Part shown: in pieces, positions 50,341 to 53,058 of the stretch
How the letters are laid out: each line of letters starts with the position of its first letter
How positions within the stretch are numbered: position 1 is the stretch's first letter
NCBI GenBank assembly: GCA_021805725.1
Contig: JAJZEH010000041.1
Location: 62,001 to 126,000, forward strand
Direction of reading: 5' to 3'
Source of the DNA: Pseudomonadota bacterium
Lineage (GTDB): Bacteria; Pseudomonadota; Gammaproteobacteria; Burkholderiales; Ferrovaceae
Length of the DNA: 64,000 nt
The notes under the pieces: generated by a model
The model's database searches: none
Seen by the model: the letters and a program-made list of their open reading frames with translations, nothing else
Told to the model about the DNA's origin: nothing
Translations under genes and position numbers: made by a program

Positions 50341-52305
50341 ATGGATACTGATCAACCCAACAGTGCCGCCGTCGACACTCCGGCCGAGAAGGAAAATCGC
50401 ATTTCGTCGCGCCGGCGCTTCATTACCACCACACTGGTGGGTGCCACGGGAGGATTGATCGCAGCGGATGCCGTTGCCCTTCAGGATACCCGACCCGACA
50501 ACCACCCCATTGTGGTGCCCAAGGAATTCGAGCTTTCAGCCGAGACACCCTTTCCAAGGATCGACTTCCCGATGACCGGCGCCGACGTCTTCGCTGCGGC
50601 ATGCAAGACAGAGGGTATTGCCGCACTGTTGTGCTGTCCTGGCAACTACAAGGTCGTGCACGCCATGGTGGCGCAGGGCATCCCGGTCTATTCCGGCCGT
50701 AACGAATTGGCCATGTGTGCCGCGGCGGATGCGTTTATCCGCGTCACCGGCGAAATTGCCGCCACCTCAGGCACCGAAGGTCCTGGCTTCACCACCATGA
50801 TTTGCTCCATTGCCACGGCCCACGCGGCCCGAACACCATTGCTGGTATTGGCCAGCAACACCAGCGTGAAGGATGATGACACCGAGGCCGGAATCCAGGT
50901 GGGTTACCAGCAACCCACCACGGTAGGGCTGCGCAAATATGGCAAACGATTGATCACGCCACAACGCGTGCATGAATATGCAGGCTATGCCTTTCGTGAA
51001 CTGCGAACAGGGATTCCGCGACCGGTCCACCTCGACTTCACCAATGAAGTGGCCGACGCCCGCTTCAAGAGCATGGCAGACCTCACATTTTTCTACGACA
51101 AAAGCAAATACCGCACCGAGTCGAAGCCGCATCCCGATCCAGCAGACCTCAAGGCTGCTGTGGACCTGTTGCGCAAGGCCAAGCGCCCCATCATCGTCGC
51201 GAGCACGGGCGTGTTCTACAGCCGTGCCTGGGACCCCTTGCGCAGGCTCTCGGAAAAAGCCAACATTCCAGTGGTTGAATCGGGAGCCATGCGCGGACAA
51301 TTCCCCGACGACCATCCCCTCTCGGCAAACCGCTCACCCGCAGCGTTGAGTAGTGCCGACGTGGTCATGCTGGTGGGGCAATATTGCATGCCCACCATCG
51401 GTGAATATGCGTTTGGGCCGGAAGCGCGCTATATCCGCATCGAACCGGTGGGAGAGGACATCGGGCGCAACCTCCCCATCGACATCGGTATTGTTGCCGA
51501 CGAACGCGCCGCTCTGGCAGCCCTGGCCCACGAAATGCCGGCCATGACCCACCCGGAATGGCTAGCCGAAATCAGGGTGGCACGCGCCAAATTTGAAGCC
51601 GAAAACGAAGCCATTTATCAATTGGGCGCGGCGTATACCGACGCTGTCCACCCAGCCGTGATCAGCAAGCATCTCGCGCAGTTCCTGCAGAACGGCAAAA
51701 TACCAAAAGAGCAGACCACCATCGTGCAAGGTGGTTTTGGCATCGCCCGCTATACCCGGCGTTGGCTGCAGTCCTTCCGCCCCGGCCAGATCATGTGCGG
51801 CAATTACCAATATGGCCCCGTGGGGCTTGACGTTGGCTTTACAGTGGGTGTTGCCGCAGCCGTACGGCAAGGTGCCGGGCTACAGGCGGCCTACAAGGGA
51901 CACCCCGTGGTTTGCATCACGGGAGATGCCGGGTTTGGATATTCCGGCATGGAAGTGGAGACCATGGCCAAATACCGCATGCCGGCTGTCATCGTCCTTT
52001 ACAACAACAACTCCTGGGGCACCTGGTACCCGCAGGCAGACCAGGTCCACAATGCCCCCATTCACCTGTTCCAGGAAAACCTGCGCTACGACAAGATGGC
52101 CGAAGCACTTGGCGGCCGTGGCGAATATGTCACCCGGCCGGAAGAGTTTTTGGGAGCGCTAGAGAGGGCGTGGAACGTCGCCACCACGGAAAGCCTGCCA
52201 GTGGTGATCAATTGCCAGGGCAAGAAGGAATTCTGGTTGCGTTCGAAGACTTCCCCCGGATTTCTGGGCAAGGTCGAACCGGGCTGCATGTCCTATTACC
52301 ACTGA
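50341..52305 (+). CDS. Tat-exported thiamine-diphosphate-dependent enzyme
   Basis: 654 aa. The N-terminus has a full twin-arginine motif, SRRRFIT at residues 23-29, followed by a hydrophobic segment to about residue 47. The mature part has the three-domain ThDP architecture: catalytic glutamate E122 (SGRNELAMCAAADAF), middle domain about 265-400, and the ThDP motif from G528-D529 to N555-N556 (GDAGFGYSGMEVET ... NNNSWG). GFGYSGMEVET resembles oxalyl-CoA decarboxylase/2-hydroxyacyl-CoA lyases, but those are cytosolic. The reaction is unknown. It is followed 13 nt later by a 155-aa gene and then a cytochrome c. Confidence 0.85.
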   Translation: MDTDQPNSAAVDTPAEKENRISSRRRFITTTLVGATGGLIAADAVALQDTRPDNHPIVVPKEFELSAETPFPRIDFPMTGADVFAAACKTEGIAALLCCPGNYKVVHAMVAQGIPVYSGRNELAMCAAADAFIRVTGEIAATSGTEGPGFTTMICSIATAHAARTPLLVLASNTSVKDDDTEAGIQVGYQQPTTVGLRKYGKRLITPQRVHEYAGYAFRELRTGIPRPVHLDFTNEVADARFKSMADLTFFYDKSKYRTESKPHPDPADLKAAVDLLRKAKRPIIVASTGVFYSRAWDPLRRLSEKANIPVVESGAMRGQFPDDHPLSANRSPAALSSADVVMLVGQYCMPTIGEYAFGPEARYIRIEPVGEDIGRNLPIDIGIVADERAALAALAHEMPAMTHPEWLAEIRVARAKFEAENEAIYQLGAAYTDAVHPAVISKHLAQFLQNGKIPKEQTTIVQGGFGIARYTRRWLQSFRPGQIMCGNYQYGPVGLDVGFTVGVAAAVRQGAGLQAAYKGHPVVCITGDAGFGYSGMEVETMAKYRMPAVIVLYNNNSWGTWYPQADQVHNAPIHLFQENLRYDKMAEALGGRGEYVTRPEEFLGALERAWNVATTESLPVVINCQGKKEFWLRSKTSPGFLGKVEPGCMSYYH

Positions 52306-52318
52306 ACGGACGCGCACC

Positions 52319-52786
52319 TTGACCCTGCCTGCTTTCACCGCAGTTCAAAACGCATTGACGGGCTACGCCCATCGCGGGGTTTTTCGCAGTATCGACGAGG
52401 GTCGTGCCATGGGGGACGCCACCCAGTTCACGATCACCTGGCAGAGCGAGCGGCCCATTCGCTGTGTGGTCGCGCCCCCCACCCTCACCCTGCGCGACTT
52501 CCTGCCCTCCGTCCCGGCGCGCTCAGAGATGTACAAGGATTTGCGCGCGCTGGTACAGCAGTTTGCGGATCCCCTGCTGCCCGAGCATCGCGGCATCGCT
52601 CCGCACCGGGCCTCGGCCCGCGTCACCAACAACAGGCAGCGCCTGTCGCTGGTCATTGAAAGCCTGGATGGTGACTATGCCTATGCCACCCGCAAGCTGA
52701 TGTTCATTGCCCACGAGGTCTGGCTAAGACTGCAGTCCGACTGGGTTCACTATCTTTGGGAAGAATTTGGAGCACCAATGGAATGA
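52319..52786 (+). CDS. uncharacterised 155-aa protein
   Basis: 155 aa from a TTG at 52319, no good Shine-Dalgarno, 13 nt after the ThDP gene; an ATG at 52409 would cut into what looks like coherent protein (AHRGVFRSIDEGRAMG). It has no signal peptide and no recognisable cofactor motif. LPEHRGIAPHRASARVTNNR followed by SLDGDYAYATRKLMFIAHEVW looks like a conserved core. Its TGA overlaps the ATG of the cytochrome gene. Chaperone or cytosolic accessory for the exported enzyme is only a guess. Confidence 0.65.
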   Translation: MTLPAFTAVQNALTGYAHRGVFRSIDEGRAMGDATQFTITWQSERPIRCVVAPPTLTLRDFLPSVPARSEMYKDLRALVQQFADPLLPEHRGIAPHRASARVTNNRQRLSLVIESLDGDYAYATRKLMFIAHEVWLRLQSDWVHYLWEEFGAPME

Positions 52787-53058
52787 TGAATCTGTTCACA
52801 GGCGTCATGGGCGCCACTGCACTGGCAATGCTCTCCCTTGGAGCCGCTGCTGACGAAGCCTCGCCCTTTCCCCCCGGCGAGAACGCGGTCCTGGTAAAGA
52901 AAACCTGCACGGAATGCCATGCGGCCAATGTGGTTCTCTCAACCCAGTTCGATGAAGCGCTGGCGCGTCGGCAATACAAGCTTTTCGTGGGCGACCCCGA
53001 CTCCGAAGAGGGTCAGAAGGTCATCAGGTATTTGATCACCGTGCTGGGGGTCAAATAG
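52783..53058 (+). CDS. small monoheme c-type cytochrome
   Basis: 91 aa from the ATG at 52783 (ATGA overlap with the 155-aa gene). Signal peptide about residues 1-23 (LSLGAAADEA). One heme site CTECH, C42-C45-H46. No methionine or histidine follows the heme motif, so the usual sixth ligand is missing. Mature size about 68 residues. Placed after a Tat-exported ThDP enzyme, it is the obvious candidate electron acceptor in the periplasm. Confidence 0.88.
   Translation: MMNLFTGVMGATALAMLSLGAAADEASPFPPGENAVLVKKTCTECHAANVVLSTQFDEALARRQYKLFVGDPDSEEGQKVIRYLITVLGVK

Follow-up and report, generated by a model that had tools for sequence, protein, structure and literature searches.

We examined a three-gene unit in a 64,000-nucleotide stretch of contig JAJZEH010000041.1 (positions 62,001 to 126,000, forward strand; assembly GCA_021805725.1, Ferrovaceae), referred to here as the window. 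A first-pass annotation had described the unit as a thiamin diphosphate (ThDP) enzyme with a twin-arginine translocation (Tat) signal, an unknown protein of 155 amino acids (aa), and a tiny cytochrome c. Read directly from the sequence, the three open reading frames (ORFs) lie where that annotation had placed them, with the 13-nucleotide gap it reported (52306-52318) between the ThDP ORF and the 155-aa ORF and the ATGA overlap (52783-52786) joining the latter to the 91-aa CTECH ORF. Promoter and terminator scans of the unit gave nothing above chance.

Relatives were gathered by searching a collection of species genomes for two conserved peptide patterns, both of which leave out the twin arginine (RR). 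The scan yielded 157 relatives, and the best 80 (53 to 76% identity) were kept, giving 81 loci with the window included. Judged by their record titles, Acidobacteriota make up most of the 80 relatives, and Pseudomonadota, Gemmatimonadetes, Hydrogenedentota, and Rhodothermaeota are also represented. The nearest named relative of the enzyme is from Methylobacterium brachythecii (locus L001; 76%), a cultured organism that has the unit, and that of both small proteins is from a Ferrovum sp. metagenome-assembled genome (73 to 74%). It is important to note that because many of the loci are closely related, the locus counts given here do not represent independent events. The features of the unit are as follows.

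50341..52305, forward strand: ThDP-dependent enzyme with Tat signal, 654 aa (PF02776, PF00205, and PF02775 above cut-off; solved-chain matches; homologues)
50407..50427, forward strand: twin-arginine motif SRRRFIT, residues 23-29 (S23 to T29), read from the sequence; RR in 81/81 loci
50704..50706, forward strand: codon of Glu122, presumably catalytic, invariant in 81/81 loci
51922..52011, forward strand: ThDP/metal-binding GD...NN motif, residues 528-557, GDAGFGYSGMEVETMAKYRMPAVIVLYNNN; D529, N555, and N556 in 81/81 loci
52319..52786, forward strand: 155-aa protein with a secretion-chaperone-like model, proposed dedicated chaperone; by eye without signal peptide
52783..53058, forward strand: small monoheme cytochrome c, 91 aa, with putative Sec signal (CTECH); same family in 7/80 relatives
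52906..52920, forward strand: heme-binding CTECH, read from the sequence; C42, C45, and H46 invariant in 21/21
52984..52986, forward strand: codon of Phe68, aligned with the Met of distant relatives; presumed loss of the axial ligand

The enzyme carries all three TPP_enzyme domains, the middle domain included, above Pfam cut-offs, together with E122 and the GD...NN motif, which confirms that it is a complete ThDP enzyme. E122, D529, N555, N556, and Q186 were conserved in 81/81 loci and C88 in 80/81; the catalytic role of Glu122 is known from other ThDP enzymes. Among 7995 candidates scored, 1776 were homologues at an E value of ≤1e-30. As judged from its N, M, and C TPP domains, catalytic Glu, and GD...NN motif, the enzyme is a member of the ThDP superfamily, within the acetolactate synthase/oxalyl-CoA decarboxylase group. 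Its best sequence matches among solved structures were oxalyl-CoA decarboxylase/2-hydroxyacyl-CoA lyase, followed by benzaldehyde lyase, with pyruvate oxidases appearing later (best-matched chains, 8vzk, 8vza, 6xn8, and 2ag0). Of the 51 NCBIfam families matched, 25 were listed, and the score stayed below the curated cut-off for every one of these 25; we therefore treat the enzyme as belonging to the superfamily but having no named function. The scores lay far below the cut-offs for oxalyl-CoA decarboxylase (TIGR03254, score 169.5 against a cut-off of 739.4; NF006721, 177.6 against 557) and also fell short for acetolactate synthase, pyruvate oxidase, and the other named ThDP families among those listed (best, 217.8 against 587 for NF004516). 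The earlier comparison with oxalyl-CoA decarboxylase, which is among the best solved matches, stands at the level of the superfamily. The C-terminal tail of the enzyme ends in KxEPGxMSYYH or a near variant.

Signal peptides were assessed through motif and hydrophobicity. The full SRRRFIT motif noticed in the first pass is present, and a hydrophobic segment follows this N-terminal twin arginine, as in Tat substrates. Among the 120 best-listed homologues, a regular expression found RR in the first 60 residues of 110; nine of the other ten start downstream of the RR position, and one (P0028) has an altered start. Across the 81 loci, RR followed by a hydrophobic stretch was found in every case, 78 by script and three by eye (L042, SRRNF; L069, SRRHF; L072, DRRNF). 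That the ThDP enzyme is tagged for Tat export is strongly supported by these sequences.

The association with a cytochrome was counted with a strict filter, which required a CxxCH motif, a preceding hydrophobic stretch, 38 to 135 residues to the stop, and a distance of ≤900 bases from the unit. An adjacent small cytochrome passed this filter in 63/81 loci, against about 1.4 expected from how often such ORFs occur at distances above 3 kb (4 per 538,480 bp). It lay downstream in 34 loci, upstream in 24, and divergent in 4; in the remaining one (L040), an upstream match was accompanied by an antisense match. Five loci missed by the filter also have a cytochrome (L039, L042, L045, L048, and L077), bringing the total to 68/81. 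Five of the other 13 end on the contig (L005, L007, L021, L023, and L036), and eight have room and no adjacent small cytochrome (L015, L019, L020, L024, L046, L054, L062, and L064). Loss of the RR motif or the cytochrome from nearly all homologues, which the first-pass annotation had named as speaking against its reading, was not seen across the 81 loci. Export of the enzyme together with a dedicated heme partner is strongly supported by the comparison (RR, 81/81; adjacent small cytochrome c, 68/81), and the three genes, looked for together across genomes, form a set that is kept together in distant bacteria.

The cytochromes are of three kinds, which differ in position. The small type of the window was found in the window and 7/80 relatives, all Proteobacteria by record title (E value, ≤1e-17), directly after the 155-aa gene; L046 has a weak match to it (E value, 2e-4) 2.7 kb away. 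The second kind, of the PF13442 type (two tested by Pfam), lies either upstream or downstream, and the third has a helix-hairpin-helix motif and is divergent (one tested by Pfam). The tested example of the third kind, L080:7438-7884 (reverse strand), is a secreted-looking heme protein with an HHH_3 motif after its CxxCH part; proteins in L046, L066, L070, and L073 resemble it by sequence, and in L066, L070, L073, and L080 the gene diverges from that of the enzyme. A quick tree was built from the 81 enzymes (LG+G4, with SH-aLRT as the only support measure). On it, 3 changes suffice to explain the four arrangements seen among the 68 assigned loci, which is the minimum for four states. The arrangements are therefore inherited within clades, with partner or position exchanged at least three times and the link kept. 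Two genomes have two units each, G416 (L104 and L106) and G523 (L105 and L108). Both units of G416 include the enzyme, the 155-aa protein, and a cytochrome, which lies on the downstream side of one unit and on the upstream side of the other; copy L108 of G523 has no adjacent small cytochrome.

In the window, the CxxCH of the cytochrome (CTECH) stands behind a signal peptide, as the first pass had it and as expected for a c-type cytochrome; the signal is putatively of the Sec type. From the ATGATG start, this signal has no positive charge ahead of the hydrophobic stretch; an alternative in-frame TTG start (window 52756-52783) would add an Arg and make the ORF overlap the 155-aa gene by 31 bases. 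C42, C45, and H46 were invariant in the 21 cytochromes aligned. The position of the presumed axial Met was F or Y in 15/15 aligned members of the window's clade and Met in 6/6 distant relatives; the cytochrome of Devosia (L037) is of the Met-containing type. With Phe68 at this position and neither a Met nor a second His after CTECH, the window protein lacks the His/Met heme pattern, and heme of the window type may be five-coordinate or held by an unusual ligand. The structure model of the cytochrome was too weak to place the heme ligand.

The 155-aa ORF starts with TTG, a start shared along with length by several homologues and supported because these are of equal length. Its gene adjoins the enzyme gene in 71/80 relatives. 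Seven of the other nine are at a contig end, L064 has a non-significant trace, and L046 has none; L021, among the contig-end loci, was judged from its sister L022, in which the 155-aa gene is 1.6 kb downstream. In ten genomes chosen from the 80, a search for the family found exactly one copy, at the enzyme locus, in 10/10. Wider searches, which scored at most 9 first-look candidates per genome in Pseudomonadota and at most 19 in Acidobacteriota, found the family in 1/398 genomes (the query genome, G001) and in 13/199 genomes (15 places), respectively. The enzyme is immediately upstream of the 155-aa gene in 14 of these 15 places, and the 15th is at a contig end. Apparent enzyme/155-aa fusion ORFs in eight loci (L020, L025, L047, L048, L065, L068, L071, and L080) were rejected, as coordinate arithmetic places them in a frame that differs from the enzyme's.

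The structure model of the 155-aa protein is confident (predicted local distance difference test score, 95.1), and its order of helix, three or four strands, helix, two strands, and helix is that of the Class-I type III secretion chaperone/YbjN fold. In the structure comparison, secretion chaperones made up 18 of the top 26 entries (11 different proteins, ExsC and SycE counted among them; some recur in more than one crystal form), and YbjN accounted for one. No Pfam family above cut-off and no NCBIfam family matched the protein. At an E value of ≤0.1, the 84 members of the family matched seven Pfam families, and no more than four members matched any one of these; CesT and YbjN were not among the seven. 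There was no PDB sequence match at an E value of ≤10. TorD and NapD types were not among the listed structure-comparison entries or the Pfam families, and a parallel with them is functional only. The label "unknown" given to this protein thus still holds for sequence families, which gave no name, and is modified by a confident model whose predicted chaperone-like fold is suggestive of a type III secretion chaperone.

By sequence alone, the unit has intact ThDP motifs, an RR signal, a heme motif, and a conserved gene set. The torCAD operon combines a Tat-exported enzyme, a dedicated chaperone, and a heme protein (PMC6708511), and because the unit resembles this layout, we propose a comparable scheme. 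In the cytosol, the ThDP enzyme would fold and take up ThDP and Mg, with the 155-aa protein helping or checking as its dedicated chaperone. The holoenzyme would then pass the membrane via Tat and, in the periplasm, convert a 2-oxo acid or an aldehyde into a ThDP adduct. The electron-rich adduct would be oxidised by the cognate cytochrome c, directly or via a bound flavin, and the cytochrome would hand the electrons on to the respiratory chain. Here the chaperone task, the oxidation, the electron route, and the substrate class are what we infer. We give the proposal as a whole, a periplasmic oxidoreductase laid out like torCAD, a probability of roughly 0.55. A bolder version is tentative at best, namely, that the adduct passes electrons directly to a c-type heme without a flavin, iron-sulfur, or lipoyl carrier, that Tat export is aided by a maturation factor of secretion-chaperone fold, and that the heme c of the window lineage lacks an axial Met.

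The main rival to the periplasmic oxidoreductase is an exported, non-redox ThDP lyase or carboligase acting on periplasmic aldehydes or 2-oxo acids, whose cytochrome serves a neighbouring dehydrogenase (e.g., a pyrroloquinoline quinone [PQQ] alcohol dehydrogenase) that produces or consumes the aldehyde. The closest solved relatives are lyases. Moreover, a PQQ-dehydrogenase-like single-linkage cluster is represented within 6 kb in 17/81 loci (a raw count; 3/3 members tested by Pfam were PQQ), and in L063 (10066-12132) and L072 (10037-11911) the ThDP gene is separated from the 155-aa gene by an inserted PQQ dehydrogenase that carries a heme domain itself. These genes keep the lyase alive as an explanation, yet of the 64 loci in which the PQQ cluster has no member, 52 also have the adjacent cytochrome, and the enzymes in L063 and L072 bring their own heme domains; we regard it as unlikely.

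A separate doubt concerns the 155-aa protein, which could be a structural or regulatory subunit that hitchhikes through Tat with the enzyme and is periplasmic rather than a cytosolic chaperone. The predominance of secretion chaperones in the structure comparison (18 of the top 26 entries, with one YbjN) argues for the chaperone, as does the established torCAD-type layout with a small chaperone (PMC6708511), so that a hitchhiker appears somewhat improbable. Far less credible is a decorative RR on an ordinary cytosolic ThDP enzyme with a cytochrome gene as a chance neighbour. Studied relatives are indeed cytosolic or organellar, but RR and the hydrophobic stretch recur in 81/81 loci from Pseudomonadota, Acidobacteriota, Gemmatimonadetes, Hydrogenedentota, and Rhodothermaeota, and 63 loci have an adjacent small cytochrome where chance would give about 1.4.

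Gene context did not yield a substrate, as PQQ, PF04199, epoxide-hydrolase-like, and amidohydrolase-like genes recur in some lineages only. In Acidobacteriota and Gammaproteobacteria, cyclase-family genes (PF04199) precede the unit (L071:6327-7115 and L075:4879-5799; the cluster spans 10 loci, two tested) and are a possible substrate hint. Epoxide-hydrolase-like and amidohydrolase-like neighbours, named by eye, were found in 7 loci each. About 5 kb from the unit, a molybdopterin oxidoreductase with an SRR start (L001:16079-17646, reverse strand) stands beside a small CxxCH protein, whose matches to Pfam cytochrome families stay below cut-off, forming a SorAB-like pair. SirB-family and NnrS genes (window 53103-54707, reverse strand) are convergent with the unit. 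A Cys-rich 92-aa ORF with repeated CxxC spacing (window 54913-55191) lies just ahead of an ArsP_1-type permease and has no Pfam family at an E value of ≤0.001.

ThDP chemistry has been described in the cytosol and in organelles. If the proposal is true, a ThDP enzyme that is conserved, exported by Tat, and paired with a cytochrome would give 2-oxo acids or aldehydes a new periplasmic way into respiration in several phyla. Should ThDP be proven to pass electrons to heme without flavin, the unit would be a new kind of system. Dedicated Tat chaperones include the TorD and NapD types; the 155-aa partner would be a further architecture, tying such chaperones to the secretion-chaperone fold. No exported ThDP enzyme was announced among the open PubMed Central matches listed (titles and abstract openings, with subscription papers largely outside), and the word "thiamin" is absent from the passages of PMC6708511 consulted. 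Within those matches, the unit would be a new variation on the Tat enzyme-chaperone-cytochrome plan, with a cofactor not found described for it.

Several known systems share parts of this plan. The oxalyl-CoA decarboxylase/2-hydroxyacyl-CoA lyase/benzaldehyde lyase branch has the same three domains as the window enzyme, which differs in its Tat signal, extra C-terminal tail, and link to a cytochrome gene. Pyruvate oxidase and PoxB (pyruvate dehydrogenase [cytochrome]), matched by the enzyme profile at E values of 1e-25 to 1e-29, are ThDP enzymes that pass electrons to an acceptor; they depend on flavin adenine dinucleotide (FAD) and are not exported, whereas the window enzyme has a Tat signal. 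Sulfite dehydrogenase SorAB and p-cresol methylhydroxylase are periplasmic enzyme-cytochrome pairs in which the enzyme cofactor is Mo or FAD, in contrast to the ThDP enzyme here. The closest likeness in layout is to torCAD (trimethylamine N-oxide reductase TorA, chaperone TorD, and cytochrome TorC), which has the same three-part operon (PMC6708511). The enzyme there is a molybdoenzyme and here a ThDP enzyme, TorD is replaced by a partner with a predicted secretion-chaperone-like fold, and the cytochrome here is small and monoheme. Further, electrons reach the substrate in torCAD, whereas in the unit described here they are presumed to leave it.
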